This document shows positions 40,330 through 46,781 of a DNA stretch of 64,000 nucleotides, in pieces. Numbering within the stretch: position 1 is the first letter of the stretch; every line of letters starts with the position of its first letter. The notes under the pieces are model-generated. The model worked only from the letters and a program-made list of their open reading frames with translations. It did not search any database and was not told the origin of the DNA. The translations under genes and the position numbers were made by a program. This stretch comes from a bacterium SCSIO 12643 (GTDB lineage: Bacteria; Bacteroidota; Bacteroidia; Flavobacteriales_G; Salibacteraceae). Where the stretch lies: contig CP073750.1 of assembly GCA_024398135.1 (NCBI GenBank), positions 3,720,001 through 3,784,000 of the forward strand, read 5' to 3'.

Positions 40330-40857
40330 ATGAAATTAGAGAAAGAAATACCTACGTGGGCTTATATTAATTTTCAACTTCTTTATCAGATAAATAAAGC
40401 CAAGGATAATGGTGAACTTTCGGAATTAACGGTTTCTGATTTAATAAATAATACCAGTGAACATATTGGATCAAATATTCCCTTAGAAAGCTTTTATTCT
40501 CCTGTGAACAGCGGTTCAGTATTCTCGTTTTTGTACTCTTTGCTTGTAGTCCCCAAAGAATTGTTTAAAAAAGAAAACTATGACTTATTCAAAGAGTTTG
40601 AGTTTAAAATTGAGGATTATTTTGAGATAATTAAAGGGAGAAATTTAATTACTCAGAATTTTAAAATTTTCAGGTTATTGCGTAACTCTATTTCCCATGT
40701 TAACTACGAGATTGATACAAACGATAAATTCACTGTCACCTTGTGGAATACCAATAACGGGAGCATTGATTTTAAACTTAAATCAGATATTCACCGTCTT
40801 TCAAATTTTGCAGTAGAAATAGCAAAATTCTATATTGCAAATAATAACAAGGAGTAA
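40330..40857 (+). CDS. HEPN-like protein
   Basis: 175 residues, mostly helical. The segment LLRNSISHVNYE contains Arg118-Asn119-...-His123, the R-x4-H motif of HEPN-domain ribonucleases, at the expected place in the fourth helix (residues about 112-127). A long helix with FEIIKGRNLITQNFKIF precedes it. HEPN proteins usually cut RNA in toxin-antitoxin or phage-defence settings. No antitoxin (MNT) gene lies directly beside it. The nearby NACHT/sacsin pair makes a defence role plausible but unproven. The gene ends before a bidirectional terminator. Confidence 0.6.
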   Translation: MKLEKEIPTWAYINFQLLYQINKAKDNGELSELTVSDLINNTSEHIGSNIPLESFYSPVNSGSVFSFLYSLLVVPKELFKKENYDLFKEFEFKIEDYFEIIKGRNLITQNFKIFRLLRNSISHVNYEIDTNDKFTVTLWNTNNGSIDFKLKSDIHRLSNFAVEIAKFYIANNNKE

Positions 40858-40880
40858 ATTAGTACCGATAATGAGAATTA

Positions 40881-40908
40881 AAAGGCTGTCAATAATTTGA
40901 CAGCCTTT
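40881..40908. terminator. bidirectional terminator
   Basis: AAAGGCTGTCAA and TTGACAGCCTTT form a perfect 12-bp stem with a TAAT loop, between the convergent 40330 and 40916 genes. Confidence 0.85.
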
Positions 40909-40915
40909 GTTCATT

Positions 40916-41188
40916 TTAAGCTTTCCGCATCCGTTCCAATCCTTCCCATAAGATTTTTAAATTCAGAAGCGCATTTTTCTCATCAGTATCCAAACATAAA
41001 TCGGTGTGATACAAAGCAAAATCATGAATCATTTTTAAAGAATGGATTAATTCCTCAATACCTTGAAATTTGAGATGATCAATAAATTCCTGATCTACAG
41101 AATTTAAAGATGGTAGGGTTTTAGAACCATTAACAGATTCTACTAGATTGCCATGAATACAGGCGGTCTGACCATTTTGTGTTAGCAT
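40916..41188 (-). CDS. small hypothetical protein with structured mRNA leader
   Basis: 90 residues, cytoplasmic, largely helical after residue 30 (EFIDHLKFQGIEELIHSLKM, then HDFALYHTDLCLD and EKNALLNLKILWEGLERM). No family is recognised. The start codon is within MLTQNGQ, and its first codons (UGCUAACACA) are perfectly complementary to a segment 40 nt upstream. Its translation therefore looks controlled by the leader described at 41178-41352. It is the only minus-strand gene between the immunity-like run and the NACHT/sacsin pair. Confidence 0.65.
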   Translation of the reverse strand: MLTQNGQTACIHGNLVESVNGSKTLPSLNSVDQEFIDHLKFQGIEELIHSLKMIHDFALYHTDLCLDTDEKNALLNLKILWEGLERMRKA

Positions 41189-41352
41189 TTTGAATGGGTT
41201 TTAAAAGAATAAAAAGAGGGGGAGTCACTGCTAACACATTCCAAGCAATGCTCAGATAGGTCTCGGAACTTACACCCGTATGCTCCCCCAATATTTTCTG
41301 TTTAAGACGTAATTGCAAATTTTGCATTGCAGATAAATTAAAATGTGTTAGC
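41178..41352 (-). promoter_or_regulatory. candidate three-segment RNA switch (start-codon sequestering leader)
   Basis: On the minus strand, segment A GCTAACACATT (41352-41342) is complementary over 11 nt to segment B AATGTGTTAGC (41240-41230). Segment B is also complementary over 10 nt (TGTGTTAGCA, 41238-41229) to segment C TGCTAACACA (41187-41178), which contains the start codon of the 40916-41188 gene. A:B and B:C exclude each other, as in attenuators. Between A and B a frame from ATG 41327 runs through the leader and past the start codon, like a leader peptide. The layout resembles translational attenuation (erm-type), but its trigger is unknown. Confidence 0.5.
41218..41289 (-). ncRNA. 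72-nt structured RNA element with 7-bp closing stem
   Basis: GGGGGAG (41289-41283) and CTCCCCC (41224-41218) close a 72-nt element. The 3' arm runs into TCTTTTTATTCTTTT. Inside, UGUAA pairs with UUA(g)CA, UUCC with GGAA, and AGC with GCU. G/C runs of this size are striking in an AT-rich intergenic region. It could be the sensor part of the leader, or an attenuating terminator. It is not a tRNA: no T-arm GTTC sequence is present. Confidence 0.45.
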
Positions 41353-41356
41353 GTCT

Positions 41357-41364
41357 CAAAATTA
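41357..41364 (-). promoter_or_regulatory. -7 promoter box of the 40916-41188 gene
   Basis: The minus strand reads TAATTTTG (TAnnTTTG). Transcription would begin near 41350, placing leader segment A at the very 5' end of the RNA. Confidence 0.5.
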
Positions 41365-41405
41365 CGAAAAAGAATGAATTGGGTGAGGTAAAAAGCGGAT
41401 AACAT

Positions 41406-41731
41406 AAAACACCCACACGCATACTAATTTAATCCGCCAGTCTTGTGATTAAATAACCATATGACAAAAATCATAGTAGTGTATTTATTTCAAAATAAGT
41501 GCTTTATAGATTTTTTATCCGTATAAACCACAAAAGTAAAATACGTAGTTACCACATTTTTTTTGAGCGTTGGATAGGGTAGTTTTAGCTGTCTAATTCG
41601 ATAGTAAACGTTTATAGTCGGTTGTAATTATTTGCAATTGAGTAGAAGAGAGGATCTGGTTAGAAATAATGGATTAGAATGTGGGTAATATTTACTGGTA
41701 TATGCCTACGTTGTGAGCAATTAAAAAAAAC
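41406..41731. other. 326-bp intergenic region upstream of the NACHT gene
   Basis: No gene is visible. The stretch is AT-rich with long A and T runs. The end, ATGCCTACGTTGTGAGCAAT (41704-41723), just before the NACHT start, resembles the cleavage-side box of cassette-type sites, but no matching left arm is found. A promoter for the NACHT gene must lie here; I cannot point to a good TAnnTTTG. Confidence 0.4.
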
Positions 41732-43510
41732 ATGGATATAACGACAATAATTACTGGAGTAGTAGGAGCAAAATTAACTTCTTTGTTTACTGGAATTGCA
41801 AAAGATTTTGGAGAGGAGATAAAGCATACTATTTCCAACAATATTCTTGAATACCAAGTTGAAGAATACAATCGTAATTCGATTTCAAAAACACTGTTAC
41901 ATAGAGTTGAACCTAAAAGACTTAAAGAATTTTATCAACCTCTATTTATCACCAATTGTGGCCCAAATAGTAAACCAACTCATTTTGGCCGTAAAAGAGG
42001 TAGCAGAATAGCAACCGATTCAATTGAAAAATTATTTGAAAAGAAGCAATTTATTACTCTGATTGGTAGCGCTGGAAGTGGTAAAAGTACGATTGTAAAA
42101 TATTTGTTCCTGAATGCTATTGACTCGGATTTCAAGGTTCCAATAAAGCTCGAACTTAGATATCTAAATGATTATGACGGAAGTGTTATTGAATATATAA
42201 AAGACAAAATCTTTAAACTTGGACGTTTGGCATCAATTGATAAAATTGTTGAACGACTAATGAAGTCAGGTGATTTTGTTTTCTTTTTAGATGGATATGA
42301 TGAAATTACTTCTGTAAAAAAGGAAAAAATTACCAAAGAGATTGATGATTTAGTCAAATTGTATAACAGCAACAATTATCTTTTGACTTCACGACCATAC
42401 ACAGAAATTGATTTGCTTCCCTTGTTTCATAATTTTGAAGTTTGTGAACTTTCTGACGAAGACATTAACCAATTTATTCAAAAACAAATTCCACTGGAAG
42501 AATCTGAATTACAAGCTAAGATTATTGAGGCCATTAATAGCCCAGAAAACAGTTCTTATAAAACGTTTTTAAGCAATCCGTTATTGCTTTCAATGTTTAT
42601 TCTCACATTTCAATCTTATTCAAGTATTCCTCAGAAAAGAAGTGCGTTTTATAGTCAGGTTTTTGATGCTTTGTTTTCTGTTCATGACAGTATGTCTAAG
42701 CTTGCCTTTGTACGTGAAAAACAAAGTGGCTTATCGAAAGAACAGATTGTCGAGGTGTTAGAACTATTTTCATTCATCAGTTACTTTGAGCAAAAGTTCA
42801 TTTTCACAAATAAGTATTTGAATGATAAATTGAATACAATTAAATCCAAAAAATCCAGTATCAAGTTCACAAACAATAAACTGATTACGGATTTGCAAAT
42901 AGCGATTGGAATAATAAACCAAGATGGGACAGAATTTACCTTTCCTCATCGGTCGTTGCAGGAATACTTTACAGCAGCATATATTTCATCATTAAGTGAT
43001 TCTAATAAAAAGACTGTCTACAAAAAAGTACTTACGGCTCTAACAGATGACCGTACCTTTATAATGAATTCAAATGATAATTTTCACCTACTACTATCTG
43101 AGTTAGACGAAGTTGGCATTATTCGTTTTGGTGTAATTCCATATCTAAAATCCTATTTAGACAGCATCAATATTAAAACTACAAGCACAAAAAAAATCAT
43201 AACCTATTTTATTAATCTTCAAAATGTTTATGAATCCTTTTACTCGGTTATCAAATGCAATGAATTAAGTATTCAGAATGAGGAGTTTTCGAAACTATTT
43301 CGAAAATATAATCCAATGAAAAAAGGAGAAAAACATTCATCAAAAGAGGGGAGAAAACGGAGTGATGTTGCTAGGGCAAAATTAGCAAAGGAAGATATTA
43401 AACCTTTTCTAAAAACTTATATTCCAAAAATTAAGGATAAGATTCAAGAACTGGAATCTTACTTAGAAGAGCAAGACAATAGTGATACTGACATAATATC
43501 ATTAATATAA
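41732..43510 (+). CDS. NACHT-domain NTPase
   Basis: 592 residues. Walker A GSAGSGKST (112-120), Walker B FVFFLDGYDE (182-191, with the LDG.DE of NACHT proteins), sensor region YLLTSRPY (with Arg) and the winged-helix motif FPHRSLQEYFTAAYI (about residues 404-418), all as in bacterial NACHT STAND NTPases. Residues 1-95 form an unrecognised N-terminal domain beginning with a hydrophobic helix (ITTIITGVVGAKLTSLFTGI). No LRR or WD repeats follow; the last 140 residues are helical and Lys-rich. Bacterial NACHT proteins defend against phage. It is followed 100 bp later by the sacsin/DUF3883 gene. Confidence 0.88.
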   Translation: MDITTIITGVVGAKLTSLFTGIAKDFGEEIKHTISNNILEYQVEEYNRNSISKTLLHRVEPKRLKEFYQPLFITNCGPNSKPTHFGRKRGSRIATDSIEKLFEKKQFITLIGSAGSGKSTIVKYLFLNAIDSDFKVPIKLELRYLNDYDGSVIEYIKDKIFKLGRLASIDKIVERLMKSGDFVFFLDGYDEITSVKKEKITKEIDDLVKLYNSNNYLLTSRPYTEIDLLPLFHNFEVCELSDEDINQFIQKQIPLEESELQAKIIEAINSPENSSYKTFLSNPLLLSMFILTFQSYSSIPQKRSAFYSQVFDALFSVHDSMSKLAFVREKQSGLSKEQIVEVLELFSFISYFEQKFIFTNKYLNDKLNTIKSKKSSIKFTNNKLITDLQIAIGIINQDGTEFTFPHRSLQEYFTAAYISSLSDSNKKTVYKKVLTALTDDRTFIMNSNDNFHLLLSELDEVGIIRFGVIPYLKSYLDSINIKTTSTKKIITYFINLQNVYESFYSVIKCNELSIQNEEFSKLFRKYNPMKKGEKHSSKEGRKRSDVARAKLAKEDIKPFLKTYIPKIKDKIQELESYLEEQDNSDTDIISLI

Positions 43511-43610
43511 AACGACTTACAACAATGTATATAAAATCTTAGCACCCTACTTGATGTCAAGACACCATACACAAAATGTCGTATGCCATTTAAAATGCAC
43601 ATATAAAAAA

Positions 43611-46600
43611 ATGCAAGAAGATAGAAACCTATTATTAGAAAAAACTAAGAAGGAAGATGAGCGATCAAGTTTAAAAAAGTTTGCTGATGACATGTTACGG
43701 GGTTTTGAGAAGTTCAACAAAAAATCTTCCGACCGAGCCATTTGGGAATTGGTGCAAAATGCCTGTGATTTAACCGAGCGGTGTAAAATTAAAATTGATT
43801 ATCGAGATAACCAGTTTTCTTTCTCTCATAACGGAAAAGCATTTACCACTATGACCTTAATATCTTTAGTAAAACAAGTAAGTGGTAAATATGGGGATGA
43901 CGATATTCCTGAAGTAGGTAAATACGGAACAGGCTTTTTAACTACTCACACTTTTGGACGGAAATTCAAGCTTAACTCATATTTAGATGCAGGTGGATAT
44001 TACTTGCCTATTAAAGATTTTGAAATTGACAGAACACCAAAAACTTGGCAAGAGCTAAGTGACAATATTTCGGAGCAGAAAAAACGTGTTTACGACTTAT
44101 TAGAGAAAGAAAATGCTGTTGAAGTTTCGGACTTAAAAACCACTTTTGCCTACCTACCCTCATCAAAGAAAGAACTTGAATATATCAAAGAATCATCCAA
44201 ATATTTAGATGATTACATTCCTTTGGTTTTTACTATAAACAATAGATTACAAGAAGTTGTAGTCCATCAAGAAAATGGTGTAACAGACACTTATCGATTC
44301 CGTAGTAAAAAAAGAATAGAAAACGATCAGAAAATTGATTTACACAAATCTATTATTATAAAAAACCATGATGAAATCCATCTATTCAGCATAAGAGATG
44401 AGGAAGAAGAAATTGAAATTATTCTTCCAGTAGATAAGAATAAAGAGGTCATTCAGTTTAATGAGAATATAGCCCGTTTATTCTATTACTATCCTTTAAT
44501 TGGTTCAGAAGATTTTGGGTTAAACTTTATCATTAATTGCAACAAGTTCTTACCCACAGAACCTAGAGACACCATTCATCTAAATAGTGATAAGGACCAA
44601 GTAAAAGCAGATGAAGAGTCGAATAGACTCATCATTGAGAAATGCTCTAGCCTTATTTTTTCGTTTTTAAGAAGCAACATCATTGAAGTTAAAAACCCAT
44701 TACTCTATACCAACGTCAACTTTAGAACAGACAGTGATGATAGCTTCTTGAACGAGTACTTTACCGAGTTGAGTAATAAATGGAATTCAGAATTAAGTGA
44801 ACTACCGTTTGTAAAAACAAATGATGGCTATAAATCTATAAATAGCGTAAGTTATCTATCGGAAGATTTTTTAAATACAGAAGATGACCTTTTCGATTGT
44901 TTTTATGAACTCATCTCTAAGTTTTATTCCAGTATACCTGTTAAGGAAGATATTATCAAATGGAGTGAACACGCCATTAACTGGAACAATGAATCCACCA
45001 CTTTCATAACTCATAATGATTTACTTGAGAAAATAAGTGAATGTAGTCTTCAAGATTTTAACGAGACCATTCTTGTACAATACTATCAGTACATCATTGA
45101 TTTAGTTGATATCGCCTATTTCAACGATTTAGACTTAATTCCCAATATAGAAGGGAATTTCAACAAAATTGGAGTATTGCTAAAACCTGATAATCTCAAT
45201 GATACACTTATTGAACTCGGTAAAGTTTTAATACCTGTCTCCATTGCAAAATTGATTCATCCTGCTTTTCATTTCAGTTTTTCCCTCAATTTATTTAATC
45301 GTAGAAATTTCTCTGATGAAGTTAAAAACAGCTTAGATGAAAAAAATATAGACAATTCTATTTTTTATCCTGAAGAACTAAACAATGAACTTTTTCATTA
45401 TGATTTAGTAGAGACAAAAAACAAAGTTGAGGAATCCTATTTCAAATCCCTATTAGAATTTTGCAAACTCACCAATAGTGTTGATTCAACCAGTAAGCCA
45501 AACCAGCTATTAAAAAAGATTTCAACCTATTACAATTGGGATGAAAGTTTACTACACCTGCCTAGTTTAAGTGAAGACAGTGAAAATATTGAGTCACGCT
45601 CTACCAGAAAAGTGCTAATTAAAATATTCTGCAATTTAATTGCATTACACAATAACAATTGGGTTCAAGAGAACACCGCTTTTTTGAGCGATTTATGCTC
45701 CCTCTATGACGATAGCTATAAAGAGGTTTACAAGGAAAGTAAAATCTATCCAAATCAATTGTTCGAACTTCATTTAGCTGAAGATTTAAAAAGAGATAAT
45801 GGTGTTACCAATGAAATCAAACAGCTCTATTTAGCAGTTGAGAAAAAAGACATCAACGAAATATTAAGCATTGCGACATTTAATAGCTTTCTATCAGAAG
45901 ATGACTACATCAACAATAGGTATCTAACGACTATTATTGAAGAAACCTTATTTCAGGATAATATTAGTGATATAGAGAATCATCCTCTTAAAACCACCAT
46001 ACTCAAAATCATCCCACTTTTAACAGAGCAGAACTATCAACAATTGTTTCCTCAGTTAAACGACAAAAAGGCAAGCATAATGATTTCAGTGGTTTCTAAA
46101 GAAGAAACCAAAGAAGACATATTTTCAATAGTGACATTAGATGATGAAAAAATCAAAAACATTGGTGACCTAGTAAGAAAGTCCAATTTTGAAGAAATAC
46201 TCAATAAAGCACTTGAAAGTCTTGAAGATGAAAATCAACGTAAGGCTAATTTTCAATTCAAACATCAAATTGGAACCCATATAGAAGAAAAATTGAAAGA
46301 ACACCTAAAGCTGTTATTTCAGCCAGAAGATATTAAATGTGAAGTATTAGGTGAGCAAGATGGTCAGGATATAGTCATCAAAATAAAGGATGAGATCAAA
46401 TACTACATAGAAGTAAAATCCAGATGGGATAAACGAACTTCAATCAGAATGTCACGGAACCAAACCTTGAGATCTAATGAGCACCAGAATATTTATGCTT
46501 TATGTTCTGTTGACATGACTGACTATCATGAAGAAGACAGATTTGAAATCTCAGACATCAACAAAATTTTAGACAATATAAAATTCGTCAACAATATTGG

Positions 46601-46781
46601 TGAAAAGGTTGAACACCTTGTAGAAGTGTTTGAGCAAACAAAACAGCTTGATGAAATTCACTTAGATGGTGATTATAGAACTCTAGTGCCTCAAAACGTA
46701 ATCGAAGAATTTGGATTAAGTTTCGATCAATTTGAGGTTTACTTAATCACCTCATTAAAAAGTACAGTAAATGAGGATTAG
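43611..46781 (+). CDS. sacsin-type GHKL ATPase with C-terminal DUF3883 (PD-(D/E)XK-like) domain
   Basis: 1056 residues from ATG 43611 (MQEDRNLLLEKT). Upstream in-frame starts at 43551/43554 add 19-20 His/Cys/Lys-rich residues that look non-coding. Residues about 25-130 form an HSP90/GHKL ATP site of sacsin type: ELVQNACD (Glu46, Asn50), FSHNGKAFT and GKYGTGFLTTH. A long helical middle follows. Residues about 890-990 form a DUF3883-type domain: GQDIVI (Asp920) then YYIEVKS (Glu934-Val-Lys936), the D...ExK spacing of PD-(D/E)XK nucleases. A nucleotide-gated nuclease is inferred. Partner: the NACHT gene 100 bp upstream. Confidence 0.85.
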   Translation: MQEDRNLLLEKTKKEDERSSLKKFADDMLRGFEKFNKKSSDRAIWELVQNACDLTERCKIKIDYRDNQFSFSHNGKAFTTMTLISLVKQVSGKYGDDDIPEVGKYGTGFLTTHTFGRKFKLNSYLDAGGYYLPIKDFEIDRTPKTWQELSDNISEQKKRVYDLLEKENAVEVSDLKTTFAYLPSSKKELEYIKESSKYLDDYIPLVFTINNRLQEVVVHQENGVTDTYRFRSKKRIENDQKIDLHKSIIIKNHDEIHLFSIRDEEEEIEIILPVDKNKEVIQFNENIARLFYYYPLIGSEDFGLNFIINCNKFLPTEPRDTIHLNSDKDQVKADEESNRLIIEKCSSLIFSFLRSNIIEVKNPLLYTNVNFRTDSDDSFLNEYFTELSNKWNSELSELPFVKTNDGYKSINSVSYLSEDFLNTEDDLFDCFYELISKFYSSIPVKEDIIKWSEHAINWNNESTTFITHNDLLEKISECSLQDFNETILVQYYQYIIDLVDIAYFNDLDLIPNIEGNFNKIGVLLKPDNLNDTLIELGKVLIPVSIAKLIHPAFHFSFSLNLFNRRNFSDEVKNSLDEKNIDNSIFYPEELNNELFHYDLVETKNKVEESYFKSLLEFCKLTNSVDSTSKPNQLLKKISTYYNWDESLLHLPSLSEDSENIESRSTRKVLIKIFCNLIALHNNNWVQENTAFLSDLCSLYDDSYKEVYKESKIYPNQLFELHLAEDLKRDNGVTNEIKQLYLAVEKKDINEILSIATFNSFLSEDDYINNRYLTTIIEETLFQDNISDIENHPLKTTILKIIPLLTEQNYQQLFPQLNDKKASIMISVVSKEETKEDIFSIVTLDDEKIKNIGDLVRKSNFEEILNKALESLEDENQRKANFQFKHQIGTHIEEKLKEHLKLLFQPEDIKCEVLGEQDGQDIVIKIKDEIKYYIEVKSRWDKRTSIRMSRNQTLRSNEHQNIYALCSVDMTDYHEEDRFEISDINKILDNIKFVNNIGEKVEHLVEVFEQTKQLDEIHLDGDYRTLVPQNVIEEFGLSFDQFEVYLITSLKSTVNED

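Follow-up and report, generated by a model that had tools for sequence, protein, structure and literature searches.

The minus-strand leader at 41178–41364 of the window, by which we mean the whole 64,000-nucleotide stretch of SCSIO 12643 DNA that was analyzed, probably belongs to a new Bacteroidota family of antisense RNAs of the C4/CI immunity type, here in the form of a solitary chromosomal unit with a gene for a protein of 90 amino acids (aa). The fold, the complementarity of its guide segment B to an upstream segment A (obligate) and usually also to a downstream segment C, the linkage to genes, the occurrence ahead of antirepressors in viruses and the domain order of C4 can all be read from the sequences compared, and from them we infer processing, action in trans and repression. 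Most likely, the chromosomal units are immunity units derived from phages or satellites, with the antirepressor lost.

The locus is a self-contained unit in which a promoter is followed by A, segment X, a P1/P2/P3 RNA carrying guide B, C, the 90-aa gene and a terminator (Table 1). A sequence-only reading of this DNA had proposed a leader of three segments with competing pairings, and its letters and coordinates were all confirmed on the minus strand. The mutual exclusion of A:B and B:C within one molecule likewise stood, as did the coverage of the start codon by C, which shares its first G with the ATG, and the place of A at the presumed 5' end of the RNA behind a conserved Bacteroidota promoter box, TAATTTTG, which we take to be of the TAnnTTTG type. 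A through C span 175 nt, and the element running from GGGGGAG to CTCCCCC measures 72 nt end to end. The window unit looks monocistronic, and a candidate hairpin around the gene start would possibly present the start codon and C in its loop.

Table 1. Features of the window unit and its neighbors, in window positions.
Feature	Position	Strand	Observation
Promoter −7 box TAATTTTG	41357..41364	-	T1, A2, T5, T6, T7 and G8 each conserved in ≥90% of the 70 units
Segment A, upstream target of B	41342..41352	-	analogue of a1 (phage P1) / seqA (P4)
Segment X	41322..41330	-	carries leader ATG 41327-41325; partner of the P3 loop; analogue of b1
Segment Y	41304..41308	-	partner Y' 41263-41260
Structured RNA core, extent of R1 model	41208..41311	-	covariance model match
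P1 5' strand GGGGGAG	41283..41289	-	99.2% paired in 70 units, double changes at 4 of 7 pairs
P2 hairpin, CGGGTGnAAGTCCCG type	41264..41278	-	covariation
P3 hairpin, X' in or beside loop	41243..41253	-	analogue of b'; double changes at 5 of 5 pairs
Segment B, unpaired guide flanked by P3 and the P1 3' strand	41230..41240	-	analogue of a'; covariation and swap test
P1 3' strand CTCCCCC, then U-rich stretch	41218..41224	-	covariation
Segment C, downstream target of B, overlaps start codon	41178..41186	-	analogue of a2; B:C covariation
Candidate hairpin CCATT/AATGG, start codon and C in loop	41172..41197	-	by eye in alignment of 70 units
90-aa gene	40916..41188	-	ATG 41188-41186
Inverted repeat 3' of gene, terminator-like	40880..40908	-	sequence
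HEPN-like gene	40330-40857		neighbor
NACHT gene (SNaCT9)	41732-43510		neighbor
TmtA-type defence gene	43554-46781		neighbor

As sole evidence, the triple occurrence of a 9-mer is weak, such triples being present in 23 of 40 first-order random copies of the window (the real window has 8). The energy from plain RNA folding is also ordinary (z −0.73), as is to be expected because P1 and either A:B or B:C cannot be drawn together without a pseudoknot. Both results would suit chance repeats devoid of function. What raises the three-segment pairing above chance is the comparison between units: concerted changes occur in dozens of them, and this covariation already refutes an origin by chance, which we consider next to impossible.

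Leader and gene occur as four paralogues in the SCSIO 12643 genome, across which A, B and C change in concert: A/B/C is GCTAACACA/TGTGTTAGC/GCTAACACA in the window unit and GACAACACA/TGTGTTGTC/GACAACACA in the second paralogue, and the other two are of GCGAAA.. types. With the four proteins as queries, 71 gene loci were recovered from public genomes (84,980 species genomes), in Reichenbachiella, Aquimarina, Fulvivirga, Agaribacillus, Dyadobacter, Roseivirga, Leeuwenhoekiella, Flavobacterium and others, and the RNA lies immediately 5' of the gene at 64 of these loci; a gene search found no copy in 34 other genomes from the family to which SCSIO 12643 belongs. Seventy units from Bacteroidota make up the alignment; the second copies of L080 and L021, which are without A or without A and C, were dropped before alignment A3, which L022 entered minus its first letters. 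Pairing in the 70 units amounts to 95.3% for A:B (double changes at 9 of 11 pairs), 96.9% for B:C (8 of 10) and 76% for X:X' (6 of 6), and sliding one strand by 1–3 columns lowers pairing from 93–97% to 22–51%. A:B is on average wobblier than B:C, and its column 22-149 is U-G in 34 of the 70 rows, the matching B:C column being mostly G-C.

Partners were also compared between units in a swap test (34 non-redundant units, 2000 permutations). A pairs with its own B at −15.4 kcal/mol and with the B of other units at −7.5 kcal/mol, none of the 2000 permutations doing as well, and B:C (own −14.5 vs. −7.6 kcal/mol) beats all 2000 permutations. X:P3 loop and Y:Y' each gave 0/2000, the own Y:Y' pairing being the best in 9 of the 34 units, and the control pairs A:C and A:P3 showed no own-pair advantage in these units. 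The covariation among homologues that the sequence-only reading had named as its check was found in the 70 units, and its A:B and B:C pairings are real, kept through double changes. Five loci (L022, L064, L067, L068, L077) have an intact RNA core with a gene that is shortened, frameshifted or ended by the contig, hinting that the RNA is able to outlive its gene. At L029, a decayed RNA relic (1154-1257, 32.1 bits) with gene remnants shares the locus with an intact copy, and at L028 (4875-5234) an unrelated insertion splits the N-terminus of the gene from the conserved helices.

The 72-nt element had been described as overlapping the switch. The element itself is real, but mere overlap understates it: it is the core of a conserved three-helix RNA (P1/P2/P3) that displays B single-stranded, and as such the centerpiece of the system. 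When chromosomal and viral members are taken together, P1/P2/P3 are 95.2% paired with double changes at 14 of 16 pairs (P1, 7 of 7; P3, 5 of 5) in a 38-row set whose alignment was fitted to the structure. CAGTGAC after B and the CGGGTGnAAGTCCCG hairpin in P2 are constant. R1, a covariance model of the core that was used to find further members, returns the core as its sole match on the window (103.1 bits, E 5.7e-29, the window sequence itself being part of the model). Rfam gave only sub-threshold chance matches in the window at 40500-42000, such as YrlA (19.3 bits) and MIR396, and none of its riboswitch families matched there. With no Rfam family match in the tests made, the structured RNA seems to be previously uncatalogued, and it occurs in many Bacteroidota and their phages.

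The leader was also proposed to work by erm-type translational attenuation, with a leader peptide read from the ATG at 41327. An ATG does lie at X in 66 of 70 units. However, the frame over the P2 motif, the most conserved one, is split 34:32 between units, only 53 of 70 frames pass B, and 13 of 66 stop before B; therefore, no leader peptide is conserved, and it is the RNA that is. We have given up the leader peptide and regard attenuation of the erm type as highly improbable. The P3 loop may block the leader start at X in the way that B would block the start of the gene.

Viral contigs were examined in three sets, and the viral loci counted here are the matches listed, a list that is not exhaustive. 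At least 20 viral loci were found by R1 at E < 1e-3, and none of the 36 viral contigs of the third set gave a match below E 0.03. Among the viral loci in the matches listed, A matches B in every one of the 20, and C matches B in 14 (score ≥9), the other six being without C, in one case because the contig ends. In cellular genomes, the RNA turned up in 5 of the 395 genomes sampled from the phylum, 12 of the 394 sampled from a class, 2 of 108 genomes and 33 of 350 from two orders; weak cellular matches, e.g., L092 and L282, may be chance. Among 43 units looked at next, 36 had an A and 31 a C that attained the score. Five GC-rich units (L142, L124, L251, L210, L091) keep A:B and have no C, and their first genes are mutually similar. 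The whole unit had no BLAST match in phage and plasmid collections; of two phage-derived queries, one gave none and the other gave two chance matches of 33–37 bases in Streptococcus phages. A protein scan of the viral contigs with the four proteins of the SCSIO 12643 genome found 0 relatives among 99 candidate stretches. Scanning phages for the pattern of the chromosomal type of C returned 67 stretches, the known L097 among them, and in the remaining 66 the R2 model detected no copy of the RNA, so that the window's own guide has no known viral partner.

A phage antirepressor gene lies 0.02–0.65 kb downstream of the RNA in at least 8 of the 20 listed viral loci, a minimum count from a sample that is not representative, because only ORFs that looked promising by eye went to hmmscan. 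The first gene in viral loci is small and variable, and the antirepressor comes next or is itself the first gene. Its types comprise Bro-N (L093, Pfam 2e-25, anti-repressor Ant 7e-47; L244), P22_AR_N (L097, behind a 90-aa gene), Rha (L236, L247) and AntA/Ant (L259, L271), and the match at L198 is weak. Among 206 other ORFs on those 20 contigs, none is similar to the antirepressors, a control that is partly circular, since the queries were mostly drawn from the downstream ORFs. L247 and L271 have nearly the same RNA and first gene, but different antirepressors. Loci in cellular genomes repeat the linkage (L219, Rha; L294, AntA), the genome locus L286 has a KilA-N gene, and in genome G904 the RNA units precede a BT4734-like/PriCT_2 primase gene. 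RVT_1 reverse transcriptase genes, which we take as possible parts of a diversity-generating retroelement, lie upstream of the RNA at L093 (9748-10698) and L097 (4677-5645), each followed by a small gene. At L221 (1042-1488) and L315 (1250-1696), a RadC/JAB-like gene comes first after C (Pfam E 0.0012 and 2e-7).

The layout had been likened to a riboswitch or attenuator acting in cis, in which A:B opens the start codon, B:C closes it and a signal chooses between them. Both helices covary, and the forced window folds (A:B −41.3, P1+P2 −39.7, B:C −42.8 kcal/mol) differ by only about 3 kcal/mol, so that a cis switch is energetically feasible. Further, A-X-Y is nearly complementary to Y'-X'-B, and therefore a long leader hairpin would exclude the P1/P2/P3 fold, barring a pseudoknot. 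That much of the proposal stands; its purely cis form does not fare as well, since antirepressor operons, the C4 layout and the avoidance of shared B segments are better fitted by trans antisense action. An attenuator confined to cis leaves unexplained why B differs among copies in the same genome, even in tandem at L025 and L027, why C can be absent with A:B kept, and why the RNA is linked to antirepressor operons, nor is a core resembling a ligand pocket in evidence. We therefore consider it rather doubtful.

The differences in B are best seen among units that share a genome. Across 57 same-genome unit pairs, identity over the last 10 nt of B was never seen (permutations gave 5.2 expected, P 0.0016), and identity over the last 9 nt was seen once (6.9 expected, P 0.0016). 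The tandem copies of L025 and of L027 differ in B though their proteins are nearly identical, and G904 has seven units with seven guides. In tandem arrays, with RNA units about 160–300 nt apart (L311, L312, L313 (G904), L314 (G890), L315 (G916)), the guides are all different and most units have their own A, B and C, two of the three units of L314 being without a clear C; some array guides (the second in G890 and in G1051) were chosen by a simple rule, and their A and C are weak or absent. That copies in one genome almost never share B suggests action in trans, as a cis-only attenuator needs no such difference, and mutual silencing between equal guides may be what selects for this avoidance. 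However, once G-U pairs and up to one mismatch are allowed, 42 of 114 foreign same-genome B:C pairs fit (37%, vs. 39% between genomes), so that the within-genome difference in B vanishes in terms of cross-pairing, which limits the argument for trans action. We offer as a tentative possibility that banks of chromosomal C4-like RNAs in Bacteroidota, some in tandem arrays and each RNA with its own guide, form a repertoire of RNA-guided immunity, a resident RNA silencing the antirepressor or primase operon of an incoming phage or satellite with matching A and C. If so, guide diversity within a genome would be selected in the manner of CRISPR spacers.

The 90-aa protein is predicted to have a disordered N-terminus and three helices at residues 30–89 (structure model with mean pLDDT 74.6, residues 1–24 below 50). 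It has no relative in Pfam, NCBIfam or PADLOC at the cut-offs used, a single PHROGs match at E 0.1, and, in a PDB fold search with the model, a best hit at a meaningless E of 3.2. Against the first gene of L097, the match is confined to 16 N-terminal residues, and two other phage first genes gave no match; homology to the three phage first genes was rejected, the shared part being the C-encoded N-terminus of one of them. A type I toxin-antitoxin pair, with the 90-aa protein as the toxin and the RNA in excess as the antitoxin, would account for an antisense block at the start codon, for solitary multi-copy units in accessory regions and for the several loci with a broken gene behind an intact RNA. 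In phage P1, moreover, icd, the first gene behind C4, is described as inhibiting cell division and taking part in the control of ant (PMC8198154). However, the protein is predicted to be soluble with three helices and matches no toxin family, and the RNA also stands in front of antirepressor and primase operons whose first genes are unrelated, which makes such a pair unlikely.

The window unit stands alone among accessory and defence-like genes, of which the HEPN-like, NACHT and TmtA-type genes form a small defence island (40330-46781). By eye, no recognizable prophage surrounds the unit and no phage genes are in view. A recurrent neighboring gene as partner was considered and rejected, as most loci have none; type I restriction and DUF-like genes (named by eye) recur at some Dyadobacter loci only.

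Taken together, we favor an immunity antisense RNA, for which we propose the following course. The nascent transcript would be processed to an RNA of about 75 nt, and the mature RNA would pair through B with C, so that the first gene would not be translated. On further transcripts, A and X at the 5' end would be bound by B and the P3 loop, lowering read-through. Such pairing would be possible in trans as well, in which case copies with equal guides might silence one another, as in phage immunity. If this is true, phages of a second large phylum have their antirepressor and primase operons under the same three-way antisense logic, the covariance models can be used to find such operons, and chromosomal repertoires of immunity RNAs become testable with simple reporters. 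A table in a 2010 survey lists C4 antisense RNA for Proteobacteria and phages only (PMC2864571). In the open-access literature searched, we found no such RNA in Bacteroidota.

The C4 RNA of phages P1 and P7 (RF01695; c4-a1b1, RF03163) has the same order of upstream targets, RNA, downstream target, small first gene and antirepressor. The record of phage P1 gives a1, b1, c4 (77 nt), a2, b2, icd and ant1, and the Rfam C4 structure has helices P1, P2 and P3 with a pairing loop, b', and a single strand before the 3' side of helix P1; the places of a' and b' in c4 were read by eye against the annotated targets. A corresponds to a1, X to b1, the P3 loop to b', B to a' and C to a2. The two RNAs share their topology (a P1 stem, P2, P3 with a pairing loop and a single-stranded guide before the P1 3' strand), the size of the core (about 72 nt here vs. 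77 nt), a variable guide in a constant frame, and a guide with one upstream and one downstream target, although C is missing here in 6 of the 20 listed viral loci. They also share, in at least 8 of the 20 listed viral loci, an operon of small first gene and antirepressor, the window locus being monocistronic. By contrast, guide B here targets the start codon itself and there is no clear b2 target, the P3 loop giving 34/2000 against downstream sequence (weak) and 598/2000 against C in the swap test; the CGGGTGnAAGTCCCG hairpin in P2 and the CAGTGAC after B are constant here; and the chromosomal units are without an antirepressor. The Rfam C4 model, which scores 68.8 bits on phage P1 itself, has no match at E ≤ 1 in the window at 40500-42000, in six genome loci or in four viral loci, and R1 and R2 found nothing at c4 of phage P1. 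With no match in either direction, homology to C4 is unproven, and we therefore liken the RNA to C4 and do not file it in RF01695.

Solitary relatives of C4 are known from chromosomes. Acinetobacter baumannii Group 1 is described as having many solitary C4-derived sRNAs per chromosome, with differing guides, a reported GGW site, and incoming phage or host mRNAs as proposed targets (PMC5320573). The units studied here are alike in being solitary, in multiple chromosomal copies and with differing guides; however, the A. baumannii RNAs fit the Rfam C4 motif and were reported as sRNAs, whereas the present units mostly keep a protein gene under C. The conserved TGG at the 5' side of helix P1 may recall the GGW site and, with it, the RNase P processing that yields the C4 RNA of about 77 nt, a repressor in trans. 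In Salmonella prophage Gifsy-1, a leader RNA and a downstream RNA (IsrK/STnc1160) are described as regulators of a first ORF and of a gene behind it (PMC4825925). This is a different RNA in a different phylum, and the Rfam isrK model matches phage P1 weakly and the loci of the present RNA not at all.

For satellite phage P4, the CI RNA is described as carrying one guide complementary to sites upstream and downstream on its own transcript (PMC4825925). Its layout of seqA, cI/seqB and seqC is that of A, B and C here; silencing by premature transcription termination is a feature of P4, and the likeness is one of layout. The G904 arrays in front of a primase gene also recall P4, whose alpha gene encodes a primase. 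If the RNA belongs with C4 and CI as proposed, the same domain order combined with no detectable sequence relation would make it a clean case of either deep homology or convergence.
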